From positions 1 to 45,210 of the IMG/VR virus record IMGVR_UViG_3300009551_000066: a stretch of 45,210 nucleotides of DNA; one strand, given 5' to 3'. Positions 1,843 through 30,246 of this stretch are shown piece by piece. The notes beneath the pieces are model-generated. The model was not told where the DNA came from and searched no databases. It worked only from the letters and a program-made list of their open reading frames with translations. A program made the position numbers and the translations under genes. Each line of letters begins with the position of its first letter. Within the stretch, counting starts at the first letter, position 1. Source of the stretch: a virus.

Positions 1843-2210
1843 TGCGGCGGGAAAAGGTCCACGAACGGAAAGCCTGTAAGTGGGCCTTGGAGGAGCGGGG
1901 CGTACCCAACGTCAAGCTCCTCCACCCCGGCGGCGAAACCGGCTGGCCCGATCGCTTGTTTTTCATACCGGGCGGGCGTATACTGCTCATCGAGTTTAAG
2001 GAGGTGGGCTACGAACCTGAGCCTCGTCAGGTTTACGTCCACAATTTGCTAAGGGCACTTGGTTATGAAGTCGAAACCTGCGACAGCCTCGCCGCTGCGA
2101 AAGAAGCCATCGATCGAGCGTTGGCAACCGCACCTGCCATAGAAGTGCGGCCTGAAGTTTCTAGTCGAACACGGCGCCGCCGCCCTGCTGTTCGACCCCG
2201 GCCTAGGTAA
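1842..2210 (+). CDS. VRR-NUC domain endonuclease
   Basis: 122 aa. The VRR-NUC core (PD-(D/E)XK superfamily) is clear: GGETGWPDRLFF (G-x-P-D-R), ILLIEFKEVG (E-x-K) and PRQVYVHNLLRALGYEVE (conserved Gln plus helix). Stand-alone phage VRR-NUC proteins are structure-selective DNA nucleases and usually sit beside an SNF2-type helicase, as here. The last 28 or so residues (Arg/Pro-rich) overlap the helicase frame that starts at 2065 and look like out-of-frame read-through rather than a domain. The family domain ends near residue 95. Confidence 0.85.
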   Translation: MRREKVHERKACKWALEERGVPNVKLLHPGGETGWPDRLFFIPGGRILLIEFKEVGYEPEPRQVYVHNLLRALGYEVETCDSLAAAKEAIDRALATAPAIEVRPEVSSRTRRRRPAVRPRPR

Positions 2211-3540
2211 GACCAGCACGACCTACGGGGCGTTCGAGTTCTTGCGCAAGCGCAAGGTGGCCCGGCGCATGTTGGTGGTGGCCCCGCTGCGCGTCGCTCA
2301 GCTGGTGTGGCCCGCCGAGGCGCAGAAGTGGGCCGACTTCAACCACCTCAAGGTAGGCCTGTTACATGGCAAGAATAAAGATAAGGTTTTGGCTAGCGCT
2401 GCTGATTACGACGTGCTGGTCATCAACCCTGAAGGACTCCAGTGGCTTATCACCGGCTCACAACGTGGAACTGTCGTGGATAGCAAGCGATGGAAGGCAC
2501 TACAGTGCGACACGCTCGTTATCGATGAGCTCACCAAGTTCAAGCACACTAAGGGCGTTCGTTTCAAGGTACTCAAGCAAGTGCTCGGTTCCTTTAGTCG
2601 GCGCTGGGGCCTCACCGGCACCCCGGTCCCAAACGGTCTGTTGGATTTATTCGGACAGATGTACGTGCTCGACTTGGGCAACGCCCTAGGTAAGTACATC
2701 ACGCACTACCGCATGCAGTATTTCATAAATCCCGATGGGCAGGGCTGGAAGTGGGTGCTGCAGAGCGGCGCGGCCGACAAGATTTATGCGAAGGTGAAGA
2801 ACCTCGCGCTGCGCGCCAACGCGGCCGACTATCTAGACCTGCCGCAGCAGGTAGACCTGTTCCACGAAGTTGAGTTGCCGGCCAAGGTACGCAAGCTGTA
2901 CGACGACCTTGAGGGATACCTGTGGGCGAAGATGGGGGCCAAGGAGATAACCACGGCCAACGCCGCCGCCGTAGGCATCAAGCTACGACAGATCGCCAAC
3001 GGGCAGGTCTACGTAGACGACGACATGGCGAGCAAGGCATTCGGCAAGAAGCGCACGGTGCTTGAGCTACATGAGGAGAAGCTCAATGCCGTTGAAGAGC
3101 TTATTGAAGAACTCCAGGGCCAGCCTTTGTTGCTGGCATACGAGTTCAACCACGATCTTGATCGACTGCGCGACCGATTTGCGGACGTGCCCTACATCGG
3201 TGCGGGCGTTAATGCTAAGCGCGCTCAACAAATCGAGCAAGACTGGAATAACGGGGATATACCTCTGCTACTTGGGCACCCCGCGAGCATGGGCCACGGA
3301 CTGAACCTGCAAGGCTGCGACGCGCAACACGTTGGATGGTTCAGCATGTTCTGGGACTTCGAGCTCTACGAGCAGTTTATAAAGCGCATCCTGCGGCAGG
3401 GCAACAAGAGCAAGCGGGTGTTCAACCACCACTTCGTCGCCAAGGATACGACGGACGAGGATGTGCGGTGGGCCCAGAAGCACAAGTCGCGCGGCCAGCT
3501 TGCGTTCCTCGAAGCGATGGGGGCCCGCCGTGGGCGCTAA
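2065..3540 (+). CDS. SNF2-type (SF2) DNA helicase, interrupted by an in-frame amber codon at 2140
   Basis: The frame gives a canonical phage SNF2-like helicase: FDPGLGKTS (Walker A), RMLVVAPLRV (Ia), LVIDELTKFK (DExx), GLTGTPVPNG (III), LGHPASMGHGLNLQ (V) and RILRQGNKSKRV (VI). In-frame coding extends upstream to ATG 2065, which has AAGGG nine bases before it, but codon 26 (2140-2142) is TAG. It lies between WQPHLP and KCGLKFLVEHG, where the family normally has a Gln. No ATG, GTG or TTG exists between the amber and Walker A; the first later one is TTG 2242, inside the helicase after Walker A. An intact protein would be 491 aa. The source may be an amber variant, a sequencing error or read-through. 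TAG ends several other genes, so it is not reassigned. Confidence 0.8.
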
Positions 3541-4331: not shown

Positions 4332-5099
4332 ATGGACACCTCTGGCATGACGGTATTCGAGTTCGGCGAGAAGAAGCTCGCCATGGGGGATATCGACCCC
4401 CTGTATAACGCCCTGTGGAAGGCCGAGTGGCCCATGGAGCGCGTGTCCCGCTACATCCTCGCCTTCGTGGCGTTCGACTTGGCGGGCCTCGCCGGGCAGA
4501 TCGTCGATCGCGGCGCCAAGGGCTTTTGGCCCGCCATGCACCACGCCGTAGATCAGACCAAGAGGGGCAGTCCTAGGCGCTATTACCGGGGGCAGGCGGC
4601 CCACGATAGCCTAACTGCCCTGCAGACGCGTTATCGCACGGCCGAGAAGGCTCTGTTTAGCCTGGAGGGCGACTTCGCCGACGCATCGGCCGAGGTAGCC
4701 GCCCACTGGCCCGGTTGGGGACCAACGGCGGCATGGAAGATCGCCGACATGGCCGAGCGGTGCCGGGGCGTGTATATCGACTTCAGCAATTTCGGCTGGG
4801 ACCAGCTACTATCCAATGACATGATCGTCAAAGGGTTGGATAAGGCCGTCGCCATCAGCAAGCCGCGCGATGGCCGGGCCGAGATGCAGCACTTCTTAAT
4901 GCGGCATGACTGGAAGCACCAAGCGCCCGGCATTCCAGGCAAGCCGGTGGGGCCGCAGGAGATCGAAACGATCTTGTGCTATTATTCGCACGACTGGAAG
5001 ACGAATAAGCACATGCCCGGCATGGATAAGGAGAACATCCGCGCCGAGCTTACCGCGATACCGAGCCGCCACGGCCACCAATTGCTGGAGGTACTATGA
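4332..5099 (+). CDS. aGPT-Pplase/ADDT-like helical protein of thymine-hypermodification systems (probable)
   Basis: 255 aa, mostly alpha-helical. DPLYNALWKAEWPMERVSRY near the N-terminus, KGFWPAMHHA, RGSPRRYYRG (residues 78-87) and PGWGPTAAWKIADM (127-140) resemble the DNA-glycosylase-like alpha-glutamyl/putrescinyl-thymine pyrophosphorylase and amino-acid:DNA transferase families described from hypermodified phages. In that model these proteins displace pyrophosphate from 5-(pyrophosphoryloxymethyl)-dU in DNA or transfer the substituent. It precedes the P-loop kinase gene with an ATGA overlap and has a GGGAGAG ribosome-binding site. The family call is from pattern memory and the exact clade is uncertain. 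Confidence 0.55.
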   Translation: MDTSGMTVFEFGEKKLAMGDIDPLYNALWKAEWPMERVSRYILAFVAFDLAGLAGQIVDRGAKGFWPAMHHAVDQTKRGSPRRYYRGQAAHDSLTALQTRYRTAEKALFSLEGDFADASAEVAAHWPGWGPTAAWKIADMAERCRGVYIDFSNFGWDQLLSNDMIVKGLDKAVAISKPRDGRAEMQHFLMRHDWKHQAPGIPGKPVGPQEIETILCYYSHDWKTNKHMPGMDKENIRAELTAIPSRHGHQLLEVL

Positions 5100-5746
5100 C
5101 CGTATTCATCAAACTCGGCGGCTGCAACGGCAGCGGCAAGACCAGCGTAGCCCGCGAGCTTATCAAGCTGGTCAGCGCGCTCCCCACGCGCCGTAAGGGC
5201 GACGCCAAACCAACCGGCTATCGCGGCGAGGTGCCGGGAGAGGACCCCTTCGTACCCGTCTGGGTAATGGGCCGGTACGAAACGGCGTGCGGCGGCATGG
5301 ACGCTTTCCCCAACAAAGAAATAGTGCGGGAACTTTGGGCGCACAACATGCGTAAGGAAGGTATCGTCTTCGGCGAGGGTCTGATATTTGGCAAGACCTA
5401 TGGCTACATTGGCGAAACGCTGATGAAGAACAAGGTGTTGCTACGCGATGTCGAGACCCTATGGGCCTTCATGGGCACGCCCTTCGACGAGTGCGTCGAG
5501 CGGGTCAACGCCCGCCGCGCCTTCGCGGCTTTGCAGAAGGGCAAGGAGCCGACGCCCTTCGACCCCGAGAAGACCATGCGCATGACCTATACGATCATGG
5601 AGCGGCTGGAGGAGGGCGTGCGCTCGGGCAAGTATCCGATAAACGGCGAGGTTCTGAACCTCGGCTACTCGCCCGGCCGCCAGCCCGCCACCGACGCCAA
5701 GAAGCTCCTCAAGAAAGCATTGGAGATGTACCATGCGCACGGCTGA
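5096..5746 (+). CDS. P-loop kinase, probable 5-hydroxymethyl-dU DNA kinase
   Basis: 216 aa. The N-terminus is a beta strand and Walker A (IKLGGCNGSGKTSVAREL; G9 to T16), typical of small-molecule or nucleotide kinases. Later conserved-looking segments are VWVMGRYETACGGMD and FGEGLIFGKTYG. The GRYETACGGMD segment and the gene's place beside a helical-domain partner and an aGPT-Pplase-like gene resemble the 5-HMUDK proteins of phages with modified thymine, which phosphorylate 5-hydroxymethyluracil in DNA. A free-nucleotide kinase is the main alternative. It overlaps the preceding gene by four bases and the next by fourteen, so co-translation is likely. Confidence 0.65.
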   Translation: MTVFIKLGGCNGSGKTSVARELIKLVSALPTRRKGDAKPTGYRGEVPGEDPFVPVWVMGRYETACGGMDAFPNKEIVRELWAHNMRKEGIVFGEGLIFGKTYGYIGETLMKNKVLLRDVETLWAFMGTPFDECVERVNARRAFAALQKGKEPTPFDPEKTMRMTYTIMERLEEGVRSGKYPINGEVLNLGYSPGRQPATDAKKLLKKALEMYHAHG

Positions 5747-6608
5747 ACTCGTCGACTTCATGTTCGCCCGCGAGGCGCGACGCAAATATCACCACGATCA
5801 CAAGGTGTCGGCGGTGCCCGAGCCCGACGAAATCCTCGATACCTATCGGTTCTGCAACGTGCTGCGGAACGACGACCGCGTGACCAAGTGGCTGCACGAC
5901 AATTGGCTGGCCCGCTGGCGTACTGAGCTCCATGGCTGGTTCCCGTTCGCGGTGGCTCGGTGCGCGATCAACAGGATCGATACGATGGCGGCCATCGAGA
6001 AGTACCTGATGCCGTGGAAGCCCGAACAGGTGCGCCGTGTTTTGAAGGAGCGCCGCGCGCAGGGCTTGACGATCTATGGGGCGGCCTATATGATCGGCAC
6101 CCAAGGCAACGCGGGCGACAAGGTGGACTTCCTGATCGACAAGGTGCTTACGCCGCTTTGGAAGAACAGGCTTTGCTTCCCGTGCGATACGGGTTTCACC
6201 CATTCCAAACAGGCCAGCCTCGCCGTGGCGCACGAATGGCTTCAGAGCCATTACGCGGTCGGCTCGTTCACGGCGGCGCAAGTTCTAGCCGACTGGAAAT
6301 ACGCCAACGGTCAAAACTGGCGCGACTTCGATACGTTCGCCGCCAGCGGACCCGGTTCGCGCCGTGGATTGAACCGCGTGCTGAACCAGCCGCTCAACAA
6401 CACGTGGGATGAGAAGGTGTTTCGTACGCAGCTTGGCATCCTGCGTAACTCAGTGCTACCGCTGATCAAGCACGACCGGCATATCAAGAACATCACGGCT
6501 CAAGACTTGCAGAATTGCCTCTGCGAGTTTGATAAGTATGAGCGTGCCCGGCTCGGCGAGGGCAGGCCCAAGCAAATCTACACGCCGCACAAGGAGGACG
6601 AAGCATGA
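5733..6608 (+). CDS. 5-hmdU DNA kinase helical-domain protein (HMUDK_hel-like)
   Basis: 291 aa alpha-helical protein. YRFCNVLRNDDRVTKWL (38-54), FAVARCAINRIDT (72-84), the FTAAQVLADWKY helix (179-190) and GPGSRRGLNRVL (206-217) match the helical domain associated with 5-hydroxymethyl-dU DNA kinases. That fold is related to helix-hairpin-helix DNA glycosylases and probably reads or flips the modified base. In many phages this domain is fused to the kinase; here it is a separate gene directly downstream of the P-loop protein, overlapping it by fourteen bases. No catalytic residue can be assigned from sequence alone. The stop overlaps the ThyA-family gene start. Confidence 0.7.
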   Translation: MRTAELVDFMFAREARRKYHHDHKVSAVPEPDEILDTYRFCNVLRNDDRVTKWLHDNWLARWRTELHGWFPFAVARCAINRIDTMAAIEKYLMPWKPEQVRRVLKERRAQGLTIYGAAYMIGTQGNAGDKVDFLIDKVLTPLWKNRLCFPCDTGFTHSKQASLAVAHEWLQSHYAVGSFTAAQVLADWKYANGQNWRDFDTFAASGPGSRRGLNRVLNQPLNNTWDEKVFRTQLGILRNSVLPLIKHDRHIKNITAQDLQNCLCEFDKYERARLGEGRPKQIYTPHKEDEA

Positions 6609-7669
6609 GGTGCATTCGCGTATCGAACGTCAACCAAGCCCTGCCGGAGGGCTTGAAGTGGCTGGGCGGATACAACGGCGACAAGGAGGACAGCCGCAAC
6701 GGGCCGGTGCTAGTCAGCAACATGCCGGTCACCACTATCTACGACGACATCCGTAACCGCGTGCTGTTCAGCCCCATGCGCAACGCCAACCCGTTCTTCC
6801 ACGTCATGGAGAGCCTGTGGATGCTGGCGGGCTGCAACGAGCTACCGCTCATCACGCAGTTTAACAAGCAGATGGCGACCTACAGCGACGACGGCGGGCT
6901 GACGCAGCCGGCCGCCTACGGCTATCGTTGGCGTAGTTACTTCGGCTATGACCAGATCACCATGATCGTGGACGAGCTTCGTCGCAACCCGAACAGCCGG
7001 CGCTGCGTGCTGGCTATGTGGAACCCCGGTGGGGACCGCGACAACGATATCCTGATCGGTGTCAGTGATCTGGCGGCGGCCATGAACGGGTCGGCCGACG
7101 TGCCGTGCAACACGCACTGCTATTTCCGTATTCACAACAACCAACTCCACATGATGGTGTCGTGCCGATCGAACGACATCTATTGGGGAGCCTACGGCGC
7201 CAACGTCGTGCACTTCAGCATGTTGCTGGAATACATGGCGGCCCACCTCGACATCGAGCCCGGCAAGCTGACGCAGGTTAGCTGGAATTATCACCTGTAC
7301 ACGCAGGTCGTGGGCGACGAGAAGCGTATGAAGGAGCTCATCGTCGACTGCGAGAGCCACGACTACTACACGTCGCGGGTGCTGCGCCCCATGCGCTTGG
7401 TGCAGGACTGCGCGGCGTTCAATCGCGAGTTGCCGTTCTTCATCGATATGCTGCACGAAGGTACCAAGGAGCCGGTCGAATTCACCGAACCGTTCCTGTT
7501 CGGGGTGGCGCTGCCCATGCTGCGATCGTGGCAGGAGTTCAAGGCCGGCGATCTCGACGCGGCCGAGATGGCAGCGCGCCGCATTCGGGCCGACGACTGG
7601 CGGCTCGCGTCGGTGCAGTGGATGGAACGTCGGGCGATCGCCCGCGCACGAAAGGAGCAGGGCCTGTGA
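6605..7669 (+). CDS. thymidylate synthase family enzyme, possibly dUMP hydroxymethyltransferase
   Basis: 354 aa. ThyA-fold landmarks are NPFFHVMESLWMLAG (62-76), AAYGYRWRSYFG (103-114), the RNPNSRRCVLAMWNP arginine segment, the active-site Cys168 in ADVPCNTHCYFRI, the RS motif at 188-189 and Asn200 in GAYGANVV. An Asn at that place selects dUMP; dCMP hydroxymethylases carry Asp. Whether it methylates or hydroxymethylates dUMP cannot be read directly. The neighbouring 5-hmdU kinase genes favour hydroxymethylation with methylene-tetrahydrofolate, giving 5-hydroxymethyl-dUMP. The usual Gln before the RS motif is Cys here (SCRSND). It starts within an ATGA overlap. Confidence 0.8.
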   Translation: MRCIRVSNVNQALPEGLKWLGGYNGDKEDSRNGPVLVSNMPVTTIYDDIRNRVLFSPMRNANPFFHVMESLWMLAGCNELPLITQFNKQMATYSDDGGLTQPAAYGYRWRSYFGYDQITMIVDELRRNPNSRRCVLAMWNPGGDRDNDILIGVSDLAAAMNGSADVPCNTHCYFRIHNNQLHMMVSCRSNDIYWGAYGANVVHFSMLLEYMAAHLDIEPGKLTQVSWNYHLYTQVVGDEKRMKELIVDCESHDYYTSRVLRPMRLVQDCAAFNRELPFFIDMLHEGTKEPVEFTEPFLFGVALPMLRSWQEFKAGDLDAAEMAARRIRADDWRLASVQWMERRAIARARKEQGL

Positions 7670-15982: not shown

Positions 15983-17454
15983 AACTTGCCCCTGCCGTAC
16001 AGTTGGAATTTGCTGCCGATCGAGAAGGTCAAGCCTCCGCTGATCGTCAGGTCGATCTGGTTGATCGCGGCGTTGTTGTTCCAGAAGCCTCGATAGAACC
16101 TAGGGGTGAAGTTGCCACCGCCGTACAGGTCAGCTTCGCCCTTCCAGTGCTTGTGCCGATCGGTGGCAGCGTACTGGTAGATCGTCGCCTCGCTGGGCCA
16201 CTCCTGCCCGGCCGTATCGAAGCCTTCATTGTTGCCCCAGCCGCCGTGGCCGGTGTTGAGTGTCTGGGTACGTTCGAACGCAGACCAGATGCTCCAGTTA
16301 TAGTTGTTGCCGGTATCGCCATTAAAATTTAGGAACAACGGCGCGTCGGTCAACACAGTTGCGCATTCCGACGAAACCAGCGTCAGGTCGCGGTAGCCTT
16401 GGTTGATGCCCGTGAACGATACCGTCGTGGCTGTGGCCGCCAGAATAACCTCGCTGAGCAGTTTGAAGTCATCGCCCCCACCGCCAGCGCCGGCCGGGCC
16501 ACCGCGACCGTAGATGGTCAGGCGCGAGCCGACAACCCAATTGCCGGCCGATAGGGTGAAGTCTAGTTGGTTGATAGCTGCCGTCGATCGCCACCCCCAG
16601 TCTTCAAACTCGGCGAACATATTACTAGCGTCGGCGAAATCCTGCCGGCTGAATGCTCGCTTCCAAGAAGTCGTACGGGCATAATCGATAAATGTAGCCT
16701 CGTAATCAGTGAAGTAGCTGCCGAGCGCTGTTGAGCCTTCGACGGCGCCCAAACGTGGCGAAGCCGTGGCGTACGCCTGTGAGGTTCCGAATTTATTGGA
16801 GGTGTTGCTGTCATAGTGGGCGGCGTGGTCGCCGTTGGCAAAAACGTATATGGTGGGAGATGACGCCGTGCCTTGTCCACTAATGACGCATACCAGATCG
16901 TTGTACGTTCCCAAGATGCCAGTAGCAGACAAAGTCGGCCCGGCGACAGTGAGAGTAACCTCCGCCAGCTTTACTAGACTGCCGCTGCTTCCACCTCCGC
17001 CGCCACCCGAGATGGCAACGTCGGCCTCGCCCGCAACGCCAGCCGTAACGACTGCCCCGCTGGTGAACTTTAGATTACTGACATTGGCAACGCTGGTCGT
17101 GCCATCCTGCACCGTAATGGCGCCAGCGGCAGGCTCTACGTCGGCGTGGGTCACACGCCCGTACTGGTCCAGCGTGACCACCGGGTAGTGCGTCGCGTCC
17201 CCGTAGGTGCCGGTAGGTGCCGGCGCCAGCGGTTTGAGTTCCACGTCGATCTGGTCAGCATAGGTTCCCGTGACCGCCAGCGTCGTGCTGTCGATCGACT
17301 TGGCGAGCAGCGTCGCAATAGCCGCGTTGGCAGAGGTAGCGACCTTCTTGAGCAGCTGGTTGATAAACAGAATGAACGCGGGCGCCGCCTTCCCACTCTT
17401 CGGGTCGACGATCGGCTGGTTAGCGTTGATGGGCGGCAGATTGTCGTTAGCCAT
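15979..17454 (-). CDS. tail fibre / receptor-binding protein with two tandem homologous domains
   Basis: 491 aa from ATG 17454, overlapping the previous gene's end (GATGGCTAA). Residues 1-30 precede a hydrophobic helix (KAAPAFILFINQLL) that may anchor to the tail. A beta-rich shaft follows (TYADQIDVELKPL, QYGRVTHADVEP), then a Gly/Ser linker and two related domains of about 150 residues. Both contain L-x-EV, Y-(N/R)-DL, W-x4-AINQ-(L/I)-D, and end in YGRG. Repeated carbohydrate- or receptor-binding domains are the likely role. Confidence 0.75.
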   Translation of the reverse strand: MANDNLPPINANQPIVDPKSGKAAPAFILFINQLLKKVATSANAAIATLLAKSIDSTTLAVTGTYADQIDVELKPLAPAPTGTYGDATHYPVVTLDQYGRVTHADVEPAAGAITVQDGTTSVANVSNLKFTSGAVVTAGVAGEADVAISGGGGGGSSGSLVKLAEVTLTVAGPTLSATGILGTYNDLVCVISGQGTASSPTIYVFANGDHAAHYDSNTSNKFGTSQAYATASPRLGAVEGSTALGSYFTDYEATFIDYARTTSWKRAFSRQDFADASNMFAEFEDWGWRSTAAINQLDFTLSAGNWVVGSRLTIYGRGGPAGAGGGGDDFKLLSEVILAATATTVSFTGINQGYRDLTLVSSECATVLTDAPLFLNFNGDTGNNYNWSIWSAFERTQTLNTGHGGWGNNEGFDTAGQEWPSEATIYQYAATDRHKHWKGEADLYGGGNFTPRFYRGFWNNNAAINQIDLTISGGLTFSIGSKFQLYGRGKL

Positions 17455-18406
17455 CGGGCAGGTCCATGCTGAACATTTCCATGCTGTTGATGCGCTTAGC
17501 CGCGCCGCCGAGGTCGGTGAGCTCGAACACCCGGCCCGGCGCATTGATCAGACCGAGGCTGCGCCAGCTTACCTCCGTTTGCGGCGTGGCCGTGGTCATG
17601 TCAAGCGTACCACGATCGACCCATGTCAAGCTGAAGTCGTCGCTGGTGCGAAGCTTCAACTGTGAGTTGACCGTGCCGGGCACCCAACCCACGCTCGACG
17701 TTATCATAATCTCGTCGCACGTGACGCTGTTACGCATCCGCATGGGGTACGCGCCGGTGATAACGCTGACAATCGGGATGTTGCGCTCATCGAACATGTA
17801 GTCCGGGTTGATGTCGTAGACCATGTTGCTGTCGATCGACCCGGCGAGCGCGCCACTCTGCCACGTGATGCCGTAGTTAGCCTTCCAGTTATTGTACTGC
17901 TGCGTAGCCCACTCCGACCACTTGCCGGTCAGCTGGTCATAGATGATCGTGCCTAGCTCGCCAAGCTGCAGGACATAAAAGCTATGCCCATCCTGATTGA
18001 AGGTGAACGCCCGCAGCTGGCGCTTGCCGGGGTCGGTGCGCGCCATCGTGAGCATGACGAGTTGCGATACTTCGTTCACGACCTTCCCCTGTACCTCGGC
18101 CAGCTGGACGACTTGCCCAACCTTCTCCTGCTTCGCTGCCTTCTGCGTCAACGCGAGCGTGACAAGCTCGCTGTTGAAGAAGTAATGGGCCGGTATGGCC
18201 CCCATCGCGATCATAACATACTGCGACACGTGAATATCGAGGTCGTAGTCCGCCTGTGCAAGCTGGGTCAGCTGGCTGGTGAACTTCAACCCTGCTATAC
18301 CGTTGGCGAACGCCTCGCCGGGCGCTGAGCCGATCCCGACGTTGTGCCGCTTGCCGATGCCGCTGGCGAACGCCTCGCCGGGCGCGCTGCCGGTCGTACG
18401 CGCCAT
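17447..18406 (-). CDS. P22 gp10-like tail protein, C-terminal half
   Basis: 319 aa. The C-terminal 200 residues resemble the second half of P22 gp10 (packaged-DNA stabilisation / tail hub): HSFYVLQLGELGTIIYDQLT with GKWSEW, then ITCDEI-like, LKLRTSDDFSLTW and a terminal arginine-containing strand. The first half of gp10 is encoded separately at 19927-20796. The N-terminus carries a duplicated segment, GSAPGEAFASGI and GSAPGEAFANGI, which is not part of gp10. The split is unusual; both parts probably assemble on the tail hub. Confidence 0.65.
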   Translation of the reverse strand: MARTTGSAPGEAFASGIGKRHNVGIGSAPGEAFANGIAGLKFTSQLTQLAQADYDLDIHVSQYVMIAMGAIPAHYFFNSELVTLALTQKAAKQEKVGQVVQLAEVQGKVVNEVSQLVMLTMARTDPGKRQLRAFTFNQDGHSFYVLQLGELGTIIYDQLTGKWSEWATQQYNNWKANYGITWQSGALAGSIDSNMVYDINPDYMFDERNIPIVSVITGAYPMRMRNSVTCDEIMITSSVGWVPGTVNSQLKLRTSDDFSLTWVDRGTLDMTTATPQTEVSWRSLGLINAPGRVFELTDLGGAAKRINSMEMFSMDLPDG

Positions 18407-18407
18407 G

Positions 18408-18866
18408 TCAGGTCTCCGTGATGTTCGTACCCGCCGCCAGCACAGGGCCGCTCTGGCCCGCGCTGATCGGCAACGTCGGCACGATGGCGCCCCTGAAGAT
18501 GATCTCGCCAGCGCCGGCCGCCGAGAAGCCCAGCGACCAGAACGTAATCGTCTGGTTGGCCGAGCCCACGCCGATGTCGGGGAACACCGCGTCGGCCGCC
18601 AGCACGGCCTTGCTCGCGTTGCCCCCGGCGCCGAGCGTGCACGGCATCGCCGCAGCAGAGCGGTTGACCGCTTGGCGCGCGTAGCCGACGTAATTCGTCT
18701 CGCTGCTTATCTGCGTACCTGCCGCGCCGGGGTCAGCGGTGTGCAGGGCCAGATAGAACTGCGTAACGCCGTCAACCGAGTTATCCTCGGCCAACTTGTC
18801 GAGCGACACCGCATTGAGGATCAGCCGCAGCAGATCGTATGCGTACTGAAAGGACTTGGCGGCCAT
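18408..18866 (-). CDS. tail fibre-like structural protein
   Basis: 152 aa. FYLALHTADPGAAGTQ followed by ETNYVGYARQAV is a recognisable pattern of a phage tail fibre/structural family found in podoviruses. A beta-rich C-terminus (ITFWSLGFSAAG, IIFRGAIVPTLP) follows. It is one of two genes lying between the split halves of the gp10-like protein. The start follows the previous TGA by one base and has AGGGTG upstream. Confidence 0.65.
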   Translation of the reverse strand: MAAKSFQYAYDLLRLILNAVSLDKLAEDNSVDGVTQFYLALHTADPGAAGTQISSETNYVGYARQAVNRSAAAMPCTLGAGGNASKAVLAADAVFPDIGVGSANQTITFWSLGFSAAGAGEIIFRGAIVPTLPISAGQSGPVLAAGTNITET

Positions 18867-18867
18867 G

Positions 18868-19917
18868 TCACTGCACCCTGTTCAGTTCCGCCAACGCGGC
18901 GTTGAGGCCGGTCGGCGAGAAGCGCGCGCCAGTGTGGGGGTCGAGCTCCACGATCTGGCTATAGTAGATCGGCTCCGTCGAAAGCGCCTGCTCGACGACG
19001 GCCGACTTACTGCCGGCGCTGACCACGCCTAGCGAGAGCGTGCCGATGCCGGCGTCAGACTTCCACGCCCGCGCCGCGAGGCGAATGGCGCTGATGCTGG
19101 TGATGTCCGTATCGATATCGTCCATCTGGAAGTCCGACAAGTTGCCGGCCGTGTCGGCGAAGACGTACTGCGTATCGACGGGCGGGTTGTTGCTGATAAG
19201 CGGCCAGCCTGATGCGCCCGCCGAATACTTCCAGTCCTGCTCGGGACCGTCGGCGTCGGCGAAGCTGGTGATTATCTGGCGATCGCCCTGCATGCCAGAG
19301 TTGTTCTGCGCGCCGCTGTTGTCCCACACATAGATGTCGCGCATGTTGTAGGTGATACCGCCGCCGAACGGGTTCAAGCCCCAGCCGATCTGCGCGATCG
19401 GGCCGGCGCCGAGGTTGACGCCATTCGGCACGTTGACGACGGGTAGGCCGTTCACGTTGATCGCATACCCACCGTCGGCGCCGTTCAGAATGAGCTTGGC
19501 CTCGATATGCTGCCATGAGCCCGCCACGATGATGGGGTCGCTTGTATAGAAGACTGCGCCCCCAGCCATGGTGAAGCGAAGCGCGCCGGTCGAGGTGATC
19601 TGGAGGGTGGCGATATAGTTGTTCGCCGCGTCGCGCCACGAATAGATATACGGAGCACTAGCGTCGCCGTTGGGTAACGAGCCAAGGAAGAACCGGGCAC
19701 CAAGGCCGACAGTCGTCCTCGAGTGTGGCATCACCCAACGCAGCTGATAGCCCCCGCCGCCGCCCACAGTGCCCTGAATACTGAACGTATGCCCCACGCC
19801 ACCGGGACCACTGTTCGCCTGAATGGCGAGGTGGTTCGCTTCTGCATACGCGCCCTGCAAGAGCAGGCCCGCGTTGGTCCCGTAGTGGTCGGGGCCGTCC
19901 ATCCAAATAACCGCCAT
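18868..19917 (-). CDS. concanavalin A-like (LamG-type) tail protein
   Basis: 349 aa. The beta-sandwich pattern is clear: HTFSIQGTVGGGGGYQLRW, ITSTGALRFTMAGG, WQHIEAKLILNG, YAINVNGLPVV and MRDIYVWDNSG follow the strand order of LamG/ConA-like lectin domains in phage fibres. It probably binds surface glycans. The start has an AGGAGG ribosome-binding site. It sits directly after the first half of the gp10-like protein. Confidence 0.7.
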   Translation of the reverse strand: MAVIWMDGPDHYGTNAGLLLQGAYAEANHLAIQANSGPGGVGHTFSIQGTVGGGGGYQLRWVMPHSRTTVGLGARFFLGSLPNGDASAPYIYSWRDAANNYIATLQITSTGALRFTMAGGAVFYTSDPIIVAGSWQHIEAKLILNGADGGYAINVNGLPVVNVPNGVNLGAGPIAQIGWGLNPFGGGITYNMRDIYVWDNSGAQNNSGMQGDRQIITSFADADGPEQDWKYSAGASGWPLISNNPPVDTQYVFADTAGNLSDFQMDDIDTDITSISAIRLAARAWKSDAGIGTLSLGVVSAGSKSAVVEQALSTEPIYYSQIVELDPHTGARFSPTGLNAALAELNRVQ

Positions 19918-19926
19918 GTGAACCTC

Positions 19927-20796
19927 CTAGCCGTCGATCTGTTGAATGAGCATCGCGCGGTTGATGCGCTCTTCGATGCCCGAGGTACTGATGGGGTCTG
20001 CGCCGGCCATCACGTCGTACACGCGGCCATCGGCGCCGACGACGATGAGGCTCTCGTTGACCTGCACGCCCGTACCCGACCAGACGCCACGATCGAACGG
20101 GCGGCCTTGGATGGGCGCGAACGGCAGGTCGGCGTCGCCCGTGCCATACCAGAACTCCGTGCTGTCCTTGCCGAACAGAACCAGCTGGTCGCCCAGCTGC
20201 ATGACCTGCAACAGCACGTCCGGCTTGGACTCAGCCGTGGCGAAGTTGAGAGGATCAACCGTGACTTCACTGGGGTTGATCCAGTAGAACTGGTCGCCGG
20301 GGTGGCCGGTCGTAAGGTCCTGCTCGATCGAGATGAACACAAACTCGTCCACCACGCACAGGCTCACCGGGGCCACGTCGTCGGGCATGGCGATCTGTTG
20401 AAGCGCAGCGGCTCCGTCCGTGTACTGCAGCGTCACGCCGTCGGCGATGAACATATTGCCGCCCGTGGAGACTATGCTGGGCGGGCCGAAACCGTTCACC
20501 TCACCAGCCACGACGTTCAGGTTGTCGCCGGTGTCGAAGCTGTAGTGCAGGCGGTACAGATTGTTGCGGCTGACGATGAAGGCGTCGTCGAGCGCGAAGC
20601 CGCTCTGCGTGAACAGCTTGCGGATCGGGCCGTCGCCGACTTCGATGCGCGGGTACAGGCCGGCCCGCCGCAGCGACGCGGCGCCCGTGACGAGGTCGGT
20701 GGGGTCCTTCTCGTAGAAGCGGTTGATGTAACGGATGTCGGGCTCGCTGGCCCGCCGACGCTGGTAGGTGTCGGAACCCAGAGCAATCTCGACCAT
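19927..20796 (-). CDS. P22 gp10-like tail protein, N-terminal half
   Basis: 289 aa from ATG 20796, which shares a base with the preceding TAA. It aligns in pattern with the first part of P22 gp10: beta-propeller blades with VVDEFVFISIEQDL, DPLNFATAESKPD (P22-like 'F-x-A-AE-x-PD'), LVLFGKDSTEFWYGTG and a closing ISTSGIEERI. P22 gp10 is about 470 aa, and this one stops after the 'I-x-x-x-IE-x-I' segment. The remaining half is encoded at 17447-18406 after two intervening genes. Confidence 0.75.
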   Translation of the reverse strand: MVEIALGSDTYQRRRASEPDIRYINRFYEKDPTDLVTGAASLRRAGLYPRIEVGDGPIRKLFTQSGFALDDAFIVSRNNLYRLHYSFDTGDNLNVVAGEVNGFGPPSIVSTGGNMFIADGVTLQYTDGAAALQQIAMPDDVAPVSLCVVDEFVFISIEQDLTTGHPGDQFYWINPSEVTVDPLNFATAESKPDVLLQVMQLGDQLVLFGKDSTEFWYGTGDADLPFAPIQGRPFDRGVWSGTGVQVNESLIVVGADGRVYDVMAGADPISTSGIEERINRAMLIQQIDG

Positions 20797-21557
20797 TAGC
20801 TCATCCACCCCGTGCGCGCGACGTAGGGCACCCGGCCCCGGTTGGACCAAGTGTTGTAGACCTGGACGGTCATGTTCAGCACGCCGATGTCACAGGGGCG
20901 CGGCTGGCGTTGGCGATAGCGCGCCTTCAGGTTGCCCATGACGTTCTGCAGCGTCGCGGCGCTTTCGGCTGGCAGGGCGCGCCCGTAACGTGGATTAAGC
21001 CGCATCGCCAGCAACGTGATGAACGCATCGTCGAACTCCTGTGGGAAGGGGAACTCGCCATCGGCGGCGATCGGCGTAACCTTGACCCACTGCGCCATGT
21101 CGGCGCGGTAGAACCAGACAGCCGTAAAGCCGTCCGTATCGAGTACGACGGTGGGCGAGCCATCGATGAGGCGCCCGTTGCCGTCGAGTGTTATCGGATA
21201 CGTTGCCAGCTGGCCCGACACGTCGATTACTCCCATGCGCGCGCCGTCGTCGGGCTGCTTGGGGAACCATACGGTCTGCGCCATGGAGGTGTCGATCAGC
21301 AACCGGCTGTTCTCGACAGGCTGCTGCCAAATTTCCTGCGTCCAGGTGTTGTAGAACGCCGGCTCGATATGCACGTTGTTCAGGCCGATCGGCCAGTCGT
21401 GCAACAACTCGCCGACTTCAAAACCAGCCGTGCCCGAGACTATCGTCTGCAGGCGGCGAAGGCCATCGGCTGCTTCCGTGGCATTCGGCTCTACGCCGAG
21501 GCCGATCAGATTGCTCTCGCGGTAGCCATCAGTGATAATCTGGGACACGGTGGTCAT
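20796..21557 (-). CDS. P22 gp4-like head-tail connector (packaged DNA stabilisation) protein
   Basis: 253 aa. The N-terminal TVSQIITDGYRESNLIGLG, NATEAADGLRRLQTIVSG and the EFDDAFITLLAMRLNPRYGR helix follow the gp4 family of P22-like phages. That protein seats on the portal to close the filled head and nucleate the tail. It comes directly after the coat module and before the gp10-like gene, the same order as in P22. The ribosome-binding site GAAGAAGGG lies in the end of the preceding gene. Confidence 0.75.
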   Translation of the reverse strand: MTTVSQIITDGYRESNLIGLGVEPNATEAADGLRRLQTIVSGTAGFEVGELLHDWPIGLNNVHIEPAFYNTWTQEIWQQPVENSRLLIDTSMAQTVWFPKQPDDGARMGVIDVSGQLATYPITLDGNGRLIDGSPTVVLDTDGFTAVWFYRADMAQWVKVTPIAADGEFPFPQEFDDAFITLLAMRLNPRYGRALPAESAATLQNVMGNLKARYRQRQPRPCDIGVLNMTVQVYNTWSNRGRVPYVARTGWMS

Positions 21558-21562
21558 GGCTG

Positions 21563-21925
21563 TTAGCCCTTCTTCTCGTCGTTGGCCTTCAGCAGCGCGA
21601 CGAGCTTGTCACGCGGCCAGTCGGTCTTGTAATCGACCTTGGCGTCGTCGAGCTTCTTCATGATGTCGCCGTCGCTGAGGTCCTTGTACGGGTCATCGGT
21701 CACGACCGGCTCCTTGGCAGCGCCCTTGCCCTTGGGCGCCTTGACCTTCGAGGGGTGGTCTTCCCAGCCCGACGGCACTTCCTCCGCCGACTTGAAAATC
21801 TCGGCGCGGCCGTCCGGGCCGTAATACCACGCCGGCCACGAGACCTTCTCCCCGGTGGGGTTCGGGTCTTCGATCTCGGCGCGGCGACGCTCGGCGACGG
21901 AGTCGTTCATCAATTCATTGGGCAT
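21563..21925 (-). CDS. small structural protein with C-terminal HeH/LEM-like domain
   Basis: 120 aa. WPAWYYGPDGRAEIFKSAEE in the N-terminal part is common in phage head-proximal proteins. The last 35 residues (LSDGDIMKKLDDAKVDYKTD onward) form a helix-extended-helix motif like SAP/HeH/LEM domains, which can bind DNA. It has an AGGAGG-type ribosome-binding site and lies just downstream of a strong hairpin. Confidence 0.65.
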   Translation of the reverse strand: MPNELMNDSVAERRRAEIEDPNPTGEKVSWPAWYYGPDGRAEIFKSAEEVPSGWEDHPSKVKAPKGKGAAKEPVVTDDPYKDLSDGDIMKKLDDAKVDYKTDWPRDKLVALLKANDEKKG

Positions 21926-21944
21926 GAGGCCCTCCTACTGCAAA

Positions 21945-21970
21945 GGGTCCCTTCGTCATCGAAGGGACCC
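21945..21970 (-). terminator. perfect 11-bp hairpin after the coat genes
   Basis: GGGTCCCTTCG and CGAAGGGACCC pair perfectly around a four-base loop. On the minus strand it follows the coat and small head genes and is trailed by CTTTG. A partial terminator here would raise coat expression over downstream tail genes. RNA stabilisation is an alternative. Confidence 0.65.
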
Positions 21971-21992
21971 CGGTTTCGTTGGATGCTGCCGC

Positions 21993-22193
21993 TTACGCGG
22001 GGAGCATGATGCCGGCGACGATCAGAGCGTCACGCAGCTTCTGCATGTCGGTCTGAGAGAACGCAGCACCCGGCGCGAGGAACGGCACCTGATTGCTCGG
22101 CTGGAGCAACTTGGCGCCGGAGCCGTTGTCGAAGTACTTCGGCGGCGCGTTCGGGAACTGGTTGACTTCGTTGCCGGTGGACGGATCGGCCAT
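21993..22193 (-). CDS. small head-associated protein, unknown
   Basis: 66 aa, directly downstream of the coat gene with a strong GAGGAGA ribosome-binding site, so it is probably made in quantity. The sequence is soluble, with a short helical C-terminus (QTDMQKLRDALIVAGIMLP). A head decoration or completion role fits its place but is inferred. Confidence 0.65.
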   Translation of the reverse strand: MADPSTGNEVNQFPNAPPKYFDNGSGAKLLQPSNQVPFLAPGAAFSQTDMQKLRDALIVAGIMLPA

Positions 22194-22243
22194 GACACAA
22201 TCTCCTCATTGGGGCGGCACCATTACCGCCCCGGCCTTCGGAA

Positions 22244-23488
22244 CTACCCGATGTTGACGTTCGCACCGCCGGACACTCGGGTGCCCAGACGGGTGTCGAG
22301 GTTCTTCACGCCGTACAGCGCATCCCAGCGATGGAGGTGCGTGTCGTTCGTGCCGTCGCTCGTCCGCCAGTAGCGGATGGTCACGCCGGTCTCGGGGTCG
22401 GTGGCGAAGCTGGCCTGACCCGAGAACGGATCGGTCAGCTTGGCGAACACAAGGGCAATGGCGCTCTTGTGGAAGATCGCGCTCTGGGAGAAGGCCGTGC
22501 TGGCCGCGCCCATGAACGAGATCGCCGCATTGTCTGCGGGGGCGGTGTCGACCGTCGCGAACGCGCCACCGACGATCATCGGATTGGCGATCGAAAAGGT
22601 CGCGTTGCCGGCGCCGTCGGCGACCACGTCCGCGAGCAGCGTGAACTGCGCGAGGTACGGGAGCTTCGCCTTGGTGCGCGGATTGACCGGGTGCACGCCC
22701 GCGATCGAGAACACTTCACCCGCCTTGAAGGTGGCGCCGGCGGCCCAGCCGTCCGTGATGAGGTTCTGGATGTAGGTCGTGTTGACCGCGGTGTACAGCA
22801 CGTTCTGCGCGGCGCCGTTGATCGTGCCCGCCCCGGTCGCGGCCCGCGTGCCGGTGACGAGGTTGATGATCGACTGCGTCATGTACGGCTGGACGTTGCC
22901 GAGCAGCGGAATCTTCGCCCGCTCCAGGGCGTTCTCGGCGATGTCGCGCTGCGCGTACAGCCCGGTGAACGTACCGGCCAGCTTCCAGTAGTCGGCCGGC
23001 GAAAGGACGCCCGCGCGGCCGTCGCCCGGCACCGCCATCTCGTCCAGCTTCTGCGGACCCTGGAAGAAGTCGGCGGCGTTGCTGATCACGGTACCCGGCG
23101 TGCCCGTCCAGGACGGGAACTGCAGGACCGTGCCCATCAGGTCGCTGTCGATCTGCTGAGCCAACTGCGCGGCCTCGGCCTGCATGATCGCGGACTTCAG
23201 CAGCTGATCGACCGTCAGGGTGTCTTCCAGCGACGTGAACTGGATATCGATGCCCTTCTGCTTGTCGATCTTGACGGGCACTTCGCCTTCGATCACATTC
23301 TGGACCTGCGCCACGGCGCCGTCGCGGATGATGAACTCGGGCGGACGCTTCACGTAGACCGTGTTACCGATCTTCTTGAATTCGTTCTTGAACTCGGTCG
23401 TCACGAGCTTGCCCATGACCAAGTTGTTCTTCAACAGCTTGAGCATGACGTTCGCGTAGACCTTCGGAGTAAGAAGGGTATTCGCCAT
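22244..23488 (-). CDS. major capsid protein, P22 coat-like
   Basis: 414 aa from ATG 23488; an in-frame TTG three codons earlier is the alternative. The N-terminus (MANTLLTPKVYANVMLKLLK), GNTVYVKRPPEF, the I-x-FTSLEDTLT segment and WRTSDGTNDTH-x-HRWD near the C-terminus match the P22 gp5 coat family. The insertion-domain region is present. P22 coat is 430 aa. It sits between scaffold and small head genes, and is the best single marker of virion type here. Confidence 0.9.
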   Translation of the reverse strand: MANTLLTPKVYANVMLKLLKNNLVMGKLVTTEFKNEFKKIGNTVYVKRPPEFIIRDGAVAQVQNVIEGEVPVKIDKQKGIDIQFTSLEDTLTVDQLLKSAIMQAEAAQLAQQIDSDLMGTVLQFPSWTGTPGTVISNAADFFQGPQKLDEMAVPGDGRAGVLSPADYWKLAGTFTGLYAQRDIAENALERAKIPLLGNVQPYMTQSIINLVTGTRAATGAGTINGAAQNVLYTAVNTTYIQNLITDGWAAGATFKAGEVFSIAGVHPVNPRTKAKLPYLAQFTLLADVVADGAGNATFSIANPMIVGGAFATVDTAPADNAAISFMGAASTAFSQSAIFHKSAIALVFAKLTDPFSGQASFATDPETGVTIRYWRTSDGTNDTHLHRWDALYGVKNLDTRLGTRVSGGANVNIG

Positions 23489-23522
23489 GGTATTCAATCC
23501 CTATTGGCCCCTCGGGGCGCTG

Positions 23523-24563
23523 TTACTTGGCGAGAATCTTGTCGGCCGCCTTGTCGAAGGCCGCAAAATCATCGGTGTCGGCGTTGACGGTGAACTTACC
23601 ACCCGCGCCACGGACCAGATTGGCCGGCGGAGTGGGGGCCTGCGAGACCTTGGCGGGTGCCGGGGCCTTCGCAGCTTCGGTGCGTGCGGTGGCCTCGCTC
23701 ATGAAGCGCGCCTCGAGACGGCCCAATTCGCGGGCCTGGAGGTACGGATCGAGAGCGGCGATGCGCTCGGCCTCGGGAACATTGCTCGCCAGATGGTAAG
23801 CGATGTCCGGGCCGACTTCACTATCACGAATGCCCAGCGCGATCAGCGGCGGGCACGGCCACTTGCCGGCCTTGGCCGACTGCGTGACCTTCTCGTCGAA
23901 ATCCGGAAGCCGCTCGGTGGCCTTCGCGATATTCGTCTGATAGTTGGCATCGAGGCGCGCGAATTCAGCACGCTGCTCGCTTTCGGCGTGCTGCTGCTGG
24001 AATTCCTGCCGCGCCGAGAACTTGGCAAGGTCCGTGATATACTTGATATCGGCCTCGCCAAATTCGTAGTCCTCCGCCTTGGGTTCGGCGTTGGGGTCTA
24101 CGGCGGGCTTGGCCTCCTCCTTGGGGGCCGCGCCCTTGTTCGCCTGCTCGCGCCAGTAATCGGCCTGACGCTGCGCCTCGTTGGCTCGCGCTTCGGCCTC
24201 TAGAACGGCAGGCGACTTCTCGACCGGCTTCGCAGACTCTTCCTCCTTCGGCTTCGTACCGTCGGGTTCGGCCTTGGGCTCCTCAGCCTTCGGCTCTGCG
24301 GGGGCCGGATCGCCCCCAAACTCTCGCTCGAGATCCTCGGCCGTGATCTCCTTCGGGACCTCGGCGGCCTTGACCTCGACTTCCGGCATCGCCAAAGCGT
24401 TCTCTTCGGCGGCCGGGGCTTCGGCGGCTGGCGCAGCGGCAGGATGCTCATCGGGCGCGCGCAGGAACCGTCCGGCCGCGCGCTCGGCGCCGGTCATCGG
24501 GCCGAGGAGCGCACGGTGGGCCACGGTGCTCATGATCGACGGGATATTGAGACGCTCGGTCAT
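23523..24563 (-). CDS. scaffolding protein (probable)
   Basis: 346 aa from ATG 24563, overlapping the portal stop. It is highly charged and Ala/Glu/Pro/Lys-rich in the first 150 residues, then helical with coiled-coil potential (AKFSARQEFQQQHAESEQRA). It ends in a basic-hydrophobic tail (FAAFDKAADKILAK). This composition and its position between portal and coat are typical of P22-like scaffolds. No protease signature is seen. Confidence 0.75.
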   Translation of the reverse strand: MTERLNIPSIMSTVAHRALLGPMTGAERAAGRFLRAPDEHPAAAPAAEAPAAEENALAMPEVEVKAAEVPKEITAEDLEREFGGDPAPAEPKAEEPKAEPDGTKPKEEESAKPVEKSPAVLEAEARANEAQRQADYWREQANKGAAPKEEAKPAVDPNAEPKAEDYEFGEADIKYITDLAKFSARQEFQQQHAESEQRAEFARLDANYQTNIAKATERLPDFDEKVTQSAKAGKWPCPPLIALGIRDSEVGPDIAYHLASNVPEAERIAALDPYLQARELGRLEARFMSEATARTEAAKAPAPAKVSQAPTPPANLVRGAGGKFTVNADTDDFAAFDKAADKILAK

Positions 24564-26815
24564 CACTTGCCTTTCTTGGCCGCTGGGGCCTTCTGCTGGG
24601 GCTTCTGGCGGGATTGCCTGTCTGCCCGTTCTTCACTGCCCTGATGGGCTGCGTGCTTGTGTTCGAGCTCCTGGAGGTGGTGGAGGCTCGCCGCCCGGTC
24701 GTGGACCCCAGCCTCATGCGCCCCTGCGTGTGCCTCCCTCGCCCGTGCTTCTGCCGCGTCAGCTTCGGCCGACGCAGACCGGGCCTTGTGCCCGGCCGCT
24801 TGGGCGTTCGCCTGCGCGGTGTACATCTCGGCCTCCTTGGAAGCAAGCTCGATTTTTCTCATACTATCCGCGTGCTGCGATTGCTGCGCCATTTCGGCCA
24901 TTTGCACCGACTGCGCCGCCTGCCCTTGCTGCTGTTGCTGGGCCAACTGCTGTTGTTCCTCGGGCGACATGTCGGCCGGGTCCATAAGCTGGGGCGGTAT
25001 GGTCTTAGCCACGCGCTCGGCGATCTCCGCAGCGCCGGGCCAGTCCTGATTTTTGATGATCAGGTCGCCGGCGATCTGCATCAGCTGCGGGGCCACCTGA
25101 ATGGCCTGCATCATCGCGTCGGCGGCGGCCTCGCGGGCCGTGGTGAACGAAGGCCCGGTCTCGACCGTCACGTCGTACTTACCGACGGTAAGATCGATGC
25201 TGTCCGGGTCGTTCGGGTCGTTGATGTTCATCAGCCGATGCTTGGTATTCGCGCCGATCGCCCGCACCACGCGCGGCGTGTCGTAACAGACGCCAAGCAG
25301 CTGATTGATGACATCGCCGCCTTCCTGAATGGACTCGTTCAGGTTGTCGTGGAAGATGATCGTCGCAACGTCGCCCTCCTGCTTGCGCGCCTGGATGGCC
25401 CGCCCGCTGATCTCGTTTGAGCGCATGCCCAACGAAGCATCCTGCAGACCAGTCGTGTCCTTGATATCCTGCGTGTTAAGCTGCACTTCCTGCAACAGCG
25501 CGGCCTCGATCGGCGGCGGGGCCTGCCGCTGAGGCGGCTCGGTGCCGTCGTTAAAGATGAGCAGCGGGTCGGACGACAGGTGAGCGTTACGGAAGTCCTC
25601 CTCTCGCCCCTTGACCGACTTATGCTCCGCCAGCCACGGTGCCTTGGGCGCCATCGCCAGCTTCTCGGCCATGGTCGAGCGCCAGTAGTTCTTCAGCCGC
25701 TGCGAGTCCTTGGCATTCCTGATAAGGCTGTAGCGCACACGGTCTTCGCCAACTTGGCATTCGCGGCCCGTGACCTTGATGATCGGCAGACGCGTGATGG
25801 GGAGCTCATACGGCCCCTCCAGAATGTCGAAGCCGGTGATCAAGTGCATCTGCGCATAGGTACGCGGCGCGCGGCGAATACGAGCCGCACCGGTCTTCGG
25901 GTCGCGGTACGCGTACGGCATGTACTGTTCCGGCTCCATGTCGGTGACGTCGACCGTGGAGCCGTCGGTGTACAAGCAGAGCTCGCGCATCTTCTCGATC
26001 ATGCGCCAGAACTCGGTGACGCGCACCGTGTCGCGATCGAACCACCCCGAGTTGAGCGCCGCCGTGGTCAGGCTGTCGTCCATCTCGCCGGGGCACGGGT
26101 GATCGGGGTACATCTCCTCATAGACGTTGCGTGGCATCGTGTCCTGCACGAAGACGTGCCGGGCGTCGCGGCCGGTGATGTCCACGCCCATGCGGTCCCA
26201 AACCACGGCGAGCGGGTTCGGGATATGCTTGATGAAGATGTCCTGCTCGAAGACATCGTTATCGGCATAGTCCATGACAATACGGAACGCCGAGATGCCG
26301 CAGGTCACCTGCGCGGCCAGCGCCTCGTCGTACACGCGCTTGGCCCGGCTGTACGCCTCGATCGACCGGATAAGGTCCTCGCGGGTCTGGGCCATATCGA
26401 CCGTGGCGTCCTTGCGGGGCGACACCTTGATCGAAGTCTCGTTGAGGCGACGATCGCCGACGACCTGTCCGATGAACTGCGGTAGCGTATTGATCGTAAG
26501 GCACGGGCGCCCGGCCCGCTCGCGCGCAGCGCGCACGTCGGGGTCCCACTGGTCCATCACAAGGAACTTCAGGTCGTCGAGTGCGGCCTCGCGGTTCGAG
26601 CGGTCATAGGCCGCGTCGGCGTCGTATTCCTTGCGGGCATAGTCGACGAACGCCGCAGCGTCCTTGAAGCCGTCGGGCGTGTACTTCGCCTTCTCGCTGT
26701 CCTCCGGGTCCTGCGCACCCATGTCGTTCGGGTTCACGTGGCCGAACGAATTGGTGGCCGGGGCCACGTCGGTGGCCGGCGCGCCGGCCTTGGGGGTGGG
26801 GAACCTACTCGCCAT
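24563..26815 (-). CDS. portal protein, P22 gp1-like
   Basis: 750 aa (P22 portal is 725). LKFLVMDQWDPDVRAARE, RPCLTINTLPQFIGQVVGD and RLNETSIKVSP match the clip/wing core of P22-like portals, and GEDRVRYSLIRNAKDSQRLK and GLQDASLGMRSNEISGRA are further family segments. The C-terminus is a long Gln/Ala-rich coiled coil, like the portal barrel, with a Lys-rich end. It forms the dodecameric DNA channel where terminase docks. Confidence 0.9.
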   Translation of the reverse strand: MASRFPTPKAGAPATDVAPATNSFGHVNPNDMGAQDPEDSEKAKYTPDGFKDAAAFVDYARKEYDADAAYDRSNREAALDDLKFLVMDQWDPDVRAARERAGRPCLTINTLPQFIGQVVGDRRLNETSIKVSPRKDATVDMAQTREDLIRSIEAYSRAKRVYDEALAAQVTCGISAFRIVMDYADNDVFEQDIFIKHIPNPLAVVWDRMGVDITGRDARHVFVQDTMPRNVYEEMYPDHPCPGEMDDSLTTAALNSGWFDRDTVRVTEFWRMIEKMRELCLYTDGSTVDVTDMEPEQYMPYAYRDPKTGAARIRRAPRTYAQMHLITGFDILEGPYELPITRLPIIKVTGRECQVGEDRVRYSLIRNAKDSQRLKNYWRSTMAEKLAMAPKAPWLAEHKSVKGREEDFRNAHLSSDPLLIFNDGTEPPQRQAPPPIEAALLQEVQLNTQDIKDTTGLQDASLGMRSNEISGRAIQARKQEGDVATIIFHDNLNESIQEGGDVINQLLGVCYDTPRVVRAIGANTKHRLMNINDPNDPDSIDLTVGKYDVTVETGPSFTTAREAAADAMMQAIQVAPQLMQIAGDLIIKNQDWPGAAEIAERVAKTIPPQLMDPADMSPEEQQQLAQQQQQGQAAQSVQMAEMAQQSQHADSMRKIELASKEAEMYTAQANAQAAGHKARSASAEADAAEARAREAHAGAHEAGVHDRAASLHHLQELEHKHAAHQGSEERADRQSRQKPQQKAPAAKKGK

Positions 26816-26993
26816 CGTGCTTCACTCCTGCCTGTTCCATCTGCTCGCGCAGGATGTCGATCTCGGCCCGAATGGCCGCCACGTTGCTCTTGAACCCCGG
26901 CTTCGCGTTGCCATCCGCATCCGTGCGCGACCTGAGCATCTGGGTCACACGATCCATTCGGCTCTTGAGCCCGGCCACTTGTTCCTCCGTCAT
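26805..26993 (-). CDS. small coiled-coil protein between terminase and portal
   Basis: 62 aa from ATG 26993, overlapping the terminase TGA (ATGA); AGGGTGG lies about seven bases upstream. An in-frame GTG four codons earlier is less likely. The protein is almost entirely helical (EQVAGLKSRMDRVTQML, VAAIRAEIDILREQMEQ), suggesting a dimeric coiled coil. Its stop overlaps the portal gene start. Unknown function; possibly virion assembly. Confidence 0.65.
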   Translation of the reverse strand: MTEEQVAGLKSRMDRVTQMLRSRTDADGNAKPGFKSNVAAIRAEIDILREQMEQAGVKHDGE

Positions 26994-28600: not shown

Positions 28601-28843
28601 TTCGGCCACATGCTGTTGATATGGTCCATGATCACGCTGAACGGGCTCGACAGGTAGTTCTGCGTGGGCGGCGCGGCGGCAGTCGGGCGCGCCGTAGCCT
28701 GTGGGCCGCCCGCCCGAGGCCCCTCCGGAGCTCACCGCGCCATTGTTCTGCCTGTAGCCCGCGCTCTGCCGTTGCAGGAACGCATTCATGGTCGCGTAAT
28801 CGGGGTAGCCCTGCGCTCGGGCCATCGCGTCGAGGTCTGTCAC
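28597..28843 (-). pseudogene. small gene upstream of large terminase, apparently frameshifted
   Basis: From GTG 28843 the frame reads DLDAMARAQGYPDYATMNAF, a good small-protein start, and a Gly/Ser-rich linker. After about 28690 it turns into a poor-quality translation, while the +1 frame gives a convincing ending: PPTQNYLSSPFSVIMDHINS then MWPK and TGA 28599-28597. That TGA overlaps the likely GTG of the terminase gene. A single extra base in the G/C-rich stretch around 28685-28735 would explain it. Small proteins starting 'ARAQGYP' beside terminase genes are common in podoviruses. Unless repaired, translation continues into the terminase as a 617-residue fusion. Confidence 0.5.
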
Positions 28844-29601: not shown

Positions 29602-30109
29602 TCGTGTATCCTTTGCTTCTTCGTTACCTCGTTACCCGGCCTCTTGGGGCTCCGAGCCGGAAATGCGATAACTCTCAGAACACTTCTCTCTAAGGTGCTA
29701 GGGTCCCATATGAGGCGCAACCGCCGAGCAACCGCAACCCCGTCCCCCGCCGCCACGCTGCCGAGAGCCCACGAGACAGAGGAACTCCCCTCCCACGTGA
29801 CGTTAACCATGTTCATTAACCACGAAGACACGCAGACTTCCGTGCTTCCGAGAACGTGGCACATTTCATGCATTAGACATCATGGTTAAGACTCTTCGAG
29901 CGTTGCAGCGAGGCCGCTGCGGTTGATACTACGTAGTTAACGACGTGTAAAGAGACTCGGTCTGGCACGGTTCCTGCAAACAGCAGATTTAACACATGGG
30001 CGGCCATAATCGCCAGCGTTCGCAGCGGCTTAGCACCCAAGGGCCGCCCTCGACAGGCCAATCCGAACAAACCCGAACAGGCCCAAGAAACGCAGAAGCC
30101 AAGCAAATA

Positions 30110-30246
30110 CAGCAACTTAGAATACAGAATTTAACACTTAACACTTCGAACGCTAAATTGCCTGCTAAATAAGAATAGTTAAGATAGGTAATACAGGTTA
30201 TAAACCAGTACCGCCTAAATAAACTGAATTTATTTGGGCGGCAATT
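30110..30246. other. A+T-rich island with short repeats; origin or promoter candidate
   Basis: It contains TTAACACTTAACACTT (a tandem eight-base repeat), GCTAAAT twice, TATAAA, and the hairpin at 30211-30241. In a G+C-rich genome such an island often marks easily melted DNA. No clear DnaA box or complete -35/-10 pair was found. Confidence 0.35.
30211..30241. other. 13-bp inverted repeat
   Basis: CCGCCTAAATAAA pairs with TTTATTTGGGCGG (one G-T pair) around CTGAA, 87 bases upstream of the first rightward gene. It could act as an attenuator, operator or cruciform. The A+T-rich inner stem with G+C base is symmetrical, so strand cannot be assigned. Confidence 0.5.

Follow-up and report, generated by a model that had tools for sequence, protein, structure and literature searches.

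An In-frame Amber Codon in the SNF2-type Helicase Gene of a P22-like Phage, Probably a Local Defect of the Sequenced Copy

The SNF2-type helicase gene of the phage described here is interrupted close to its 5' end by an in-frame amber codon (Table 1). The window, by which we mean the whole stretch of DNA that was analysed, is an entire virus record of 45,210 bases, and the presence of this TAG inside the helicase frame is a real observation that has been confirmed. The codon is most probably a sporadic local defect of the sequenced copy rather than a working signal, such that an otherwise intact and conserved helicase gene would have been hit by a short lesion turning the Tyr-Gln of its Q motif into Pro-stop. 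This reading is drawn from the fact that the stop is found neither in 93 aligned relatives nor in five closer ones, and a defect of this kind, be it an error or a nonsense allele, is favoured by the occurrence of another sporadic unfit base in the window, at 27447.

Genome Setting and Frame of the Helicase

A single gene, encoding a RecB/Cas4-like nuclease, begins in the last bases of the record and is completed by the first ones. It follows that the record probably represents a complete, circularly permuted phage genome. The two ends (1-20 and 45190-45210) meet over a common CCCGC, with no long terminal repeat. The phage is P22-like, possessing P22-type head and portal genes, and genes for a DNA polymerase and a RecB-like nuclease lie 5' of the VRR-NUC nuclease and the SNF2 helicase, as they do in relatives. 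Elsewhere in the window, the head-closure Hc3 family (PHROG 578, P22 gp10-like) matches two separate genes on the minus strand (17447-20850), with profile positions 3-280 at 19930-20850, positions 285-453 at 17450-18406 and two other genes between them. In addition, an amino acid:DNA transferase-like protein (ADDT) is encoded close to a thymidylate synthase-family gene at 4332-7669, which suggests that the phage DNA contains hypermodified thymidine.

Table 1. Coordinates of the helicase frame, its interruption and associated features in the window
Feature	Position	Strand	Remarks
SNF2-type phage helicase frame	2065..3540	+	491 codons, one internal TAG
ATG start of helicase	2065..2067	+	same position as in relatives
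In-frame amber TAG	2140..2142	+	helicase codon 26
Altered codon pair CCA TAG, replacing family Tyr-Gln (Q motif)	2137..2142	+	
Walker A (GLGKT), codons 46-50	2200..2214	+	3' of the stop, 5' of the next standard start
Longest standard ORF in helicase frame	2242..3540	+	TTG start, 432 aa, without Walker A
VRR-NUC-type nuclease ORF, 122 aa	1842..2210	+	PHROG 93 endonuclease, E 3e-15, residues 1-106
Sole base differing between window and L117	27447	.	window T, L117 C; terminase residue breaks conserved motif

Past the amber codon the helicase frame is open as far as TAA 3540, and the nearest in-frame stop 5' of ATG 2065 is TAA 2050, which leaves this ATG as the sole upstream start. Inspection of the sequence reveals AAGGG approximately nine bases 5' of it, a plausible ribosome-binding site. 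The start lies inside the upstream VRR-NUC gene, the 3' end of which overlaps the helicase in a different frame and reads the site as ...APAIEV..., and helicase starts occupy the same place in the relatives L005, L006 (MKSK...) and L008 (MKS...). Because these relatives begin at the same spot within the nuclease gene, ATG 2065 is, on comparison of the sequences, the family's true start. An earlier note on this DNA had proposed just such a frame, preceded by a ribosome-binding site and broken by TAG 2140; the proposal holds up, and the relatives compared start their helicase at this place and not downstream. Likewise borne out is its claim that no ATG, GTG or TTG separates the stop from Walker A, the only start-like codons in that interval being CTG, and the first standard start 3' of the stop is TTG 2242, beyond Walker A. 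The 466 codons after the stop have a codon-usage score of 0.36-0.37 per codon, which is the level of an intact gene. Were the TAG real, ribosomes starting at ATG 2065 would release a peptide of 25 residues, and reinitiation at TTG 2242 would produce a protein devoid of Walker A, so that a functional helicase could be expected only in a host that suppresses amber codons.

Conservation of the Helicase and Extent of the Lesion

With the stop read through, the product matches the PHROG 62 DNA helicase profile (E 6e-123), and its matches to the Pfam SNF2-rel_dom (PF00176; E 9e-20) and Helicase_C profiles both exceed the cut-off, i.e., both helicase lobes are represented. The SNF2-rel_dom match begins from residue 26 at profile position 2, consistent with this residue belonging to the Q motif that opens the first lobe. 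In the column of the stop, the 93 aligned relatives carry Gln (84) or Met (9) and never a stop, in agreement with the suggestion of the earlier note that Gln is the family residue here. The Met is encoded by ATG and occurs in, among others, PW916 and AXL3. The residue that precedes the stop is Tyr in 87 of the 93 and Pro in none, Pro being what the window encodes; one relative with a seemingly intact helicase, L027, has Ala in place of this Tyr. Five further close relatives belonging to the same phage group (59-62% identity) all have Tyr-Gln and are free of the stop. Neither Tyr-Gln nor Tyr-Met is encoded by the window copy, and the lesion, as judged from the alignment, spans both members of the conserved pair. 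Outside this pair, the helicase departs from just 4 of some 121 conserved columns, fewer than the median relative does, and its invariant columns, including PGLGK and DE, are retained; this points to a fresh local lesion rather than long decay. By its sequence, the window copy is a clear PHROG 62 homologue, yet what it encodes, read with the standard code, falls short of a full member.

The closest known counterparts are the pairs of PHROG 62 and PHROG 93 genes in Pseudoxanthomonas phage PW916, Stenotrophomonas phage AXL3 and the uncultured phage ctUtU524. These have the same domain content, and their helicase start overlaps the nuclease gene as it does in the window, at the same position in PW916 and AXL3; the closer helicase relatives are 52-64% identical. 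A difference lies in the motif, where relatives of this type have Tyr-Gln or Tyr-Met and the window has Pro-stop.

The loss of the preceding Tyr bears on how the stop may have arisen. It had been argued that CAG to TAG is a single transition, but this change is weakened as a full account by the Tyr-to-Pro change beside the stop. A lone base miscall would similarly leave the neighbouring Pro unexplained, which counts against a local defect in its simplest form, and one must further suppose errors in a cluster, a short mutation of several bases or a prior, tolerated change of the Tyr. A small rearrangement was also considered, as CCATAG consists of the letters of TACCAG (the likely ancestral Tyr-Gln codons) with TA moved across CCA; this observation is post hoc, and we draw no conclusion from it.

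Searches for the Stop Elsewhere and Quality of the Sequence

Neither a search at the protein level nor a DNA pattern allowing any base at 2140 found, among the viral_contigs, a second copy of the phage covering this position. A degenerate DNA pattern with the TAG fixed, meant to reveal relatives with a stop at the same codon, matched nine contigs, none of which encodes the helicase, and the four helicase copies found in 398 whole bacterial genomes contain no inner stop. Two apparent cases were rejected on closer reading: the TAG counted for L009 lies before the start, its frame being open from ATG 1486, and that counted for the G001 copy (PHROG profile) also precedes the start, as the protein query shows this copy to be free of inner stops.

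A second copy of the phage is available in part. L117 (IMGVR 3300025924_000124) is a 16.6-kb fragment identical to window 20768-37370 at 16,602 of 16,603 bases, a span that excludes the helicase and leaves position 2140 outside this comparison of independent assemblies. At the one differing base, the window terminase has Asp where L117 and nearly all relatives have Gly, within the motif IDxGGxGAG; the 83 aligned sequences, L117 included, have 81 Gly, 1 Ala and 1 Thr in this column. It is also the only one broken by the window terminase among 139 columns that are conserved at >=90%, and a random substitution would strike a residue conserved at >=95% in 13% of cases. The T at this position is probably an error or an unfit allele in the window and, as at 2140, the odd base is a T on the plus strand. 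The window thus carries sporadic unfit bases, at least one of them besides the TAG site. A rate of about one unfit base per 16.6 kb, which rests on a single differing base, would predict one or two more in the remaining 28.6 kb, the helicase included.

Comparable lesions occur in relatives at about 1% per gene, the examples being the helicase of L063 and a terminase frameshift in L182. In L063 (IMGVR_UViG_3300012964_000051; 1560-1600), an in-frame TAG lies inside an apparent 9-base insertion in Walker A (DPG-stop-SGAGKTS), and an HNH endonuclease gene is situated just 5', between the VRR-NUC nuclease and the helicase. The L063 stop is directly 3' of a GGA codon, and ribosomes hopping from there to the following glycine codon would produce DPGAGKTS. 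This TAG may be an error, a mark of a pseudogene or a site of bypass.

Recoding, Read-through and Loss of the Helicase

A genome in which TAG is recoded as Gln is excluded: the 33 well-supported genes of the phage (11,226 codons) contain 416 CAG and 71 CAA against a single TAG, and TAG otherwise serves as an ordinary terminator. It ends 4 of these 33 confident calls, namely the major head protein, the head-closure protein and two others, and 12 of 52 genes in a looser set. The same exclusion had been made in the earlier note from at least five TAG-terminated genes, a count that the confident calls do not reach and the looser set surpasses. The window resembles TAG-to-Gln recoded phages (table 15) in having an in-frame TAG where relatives have Gln, and is unlike them in three respects: the TAG is a single instance, TAG otherwise ends genes in the usual way, and there is no suppressor tRNA, ARAGORN having detected no tRNA genes in the 45.2-kb genome. 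Recoded phages use TAG widely; about half of them carry a suppressor tRNA, and about half of the predicted TAG-recoded cases are without one (PMC11210395).

Functional read-through or suppression of any sort is, in our estimation, unlikely. If the amber codon is real, a host, or a particular host state, might read UAG as an amino acid via a suppressor tRNA and so yield full-length helicase, an account that would accommodate the intact and conserved downstream frame with its normal codon usage, and in which a glutamine-inserting suppressor could restore the family residue. We nevertheless regard it, on indirect grounds, as quite improbable, since the seemingly complete genome has no tRNA gene, the one TAG among 416 CAG is at odds with the wide use of TAG by recoded phages, and the profile match of the major head protein extends to the last positions of its family, placing the terminating TAG at the family's own C-terminus; moreover, the Pro before the helicase stop would persist under suppression. 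More improbable still is a specific form of this account, in which the amber at the Q-motif Gln acts as a host-dependent switch that confines helicase production to hosts, or to times of infection, in which UAG is read as an amino acid. Programmed bypass, which the earlier note had listed as an option in the form of read-through, we consider highly unlikely. It would mean either that ribosomes read through the UAG or that they shift by +1 out of the VRR-NUC ORF, so as to join nuclease to helicase past the stop, and it draws some appeal from the run of that ORF over the stop to Walker A and from a CCC-C run immediately 5' of Walker A. Yet a shift at CCC-C would leave out the Q motif together with the strand that precedes Walker A, and the nuclease tail beyond the site has non-coding codon statistics. 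Nor was a stimulatory RNA structure detected: the fold of the 81 bases 3' of the stop is no more stable than that of shuffled sequences (z -0.75). With the stop conserved in none of the relatives, near or aligned, there would be nothing for them to bypass, and the read-through option finds no support.

Two accounts dispense with the full-length protein. Restart at a non-standard start, such as CTG 2152, which is ten bases 3' of the stop and ahead of Walker A, would give a helicase lacking the Q motif and retaining Walker A; this is scarcely credible, given that relatives retain the Q-motif region in frame with the upstream start and that CTG 2152 has no good ribosome-binding site 5' of it. Alternatively, a true loss-of-function allele might persist where the helicase is dispensable in the lineage or host, making the gene an early pseudogene. 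Two adjacent conserved residues are already gone, and several more distant P22-like relatives found via their terminase are without a detectable helicase, although many of these records are fragments; on the other hand, 466 codons show no other decay and the helicase is intact in each of the five nearest-clade genomes where it was detected, and we think this account improbable.

We accordingly return to a local defect, which may take either of two forms that the earlier note had listed and that the odd base at 27447 favours. The contig consensus may well be wrong at the site, whereas we propose more tentatively that the assembled virion population truly carries a recent damaging nonsense allele. 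The latter would liken the phage to classical amber nonsense mutants, which also have one amber in an otherwise intact gene; the window phage differs from these in that its recovery did not involve a known suppressor host, a metagenome contig being its only source, and in that the neighbouring codon is altered too.

Should the amber codon prove functional, this would be a rare example of a natural phage that depends on amber suppression at just one codon. The case also serves as a warning that recoding can be imitated by a short defect in a contig assembled from a metagenome, and even a fragmentary second copy is a useful check, which in this case exposed another unfit base in the contig. What we describe has the appearance of a commonplace local defect in one copy rather than of a novel mode of decoding.
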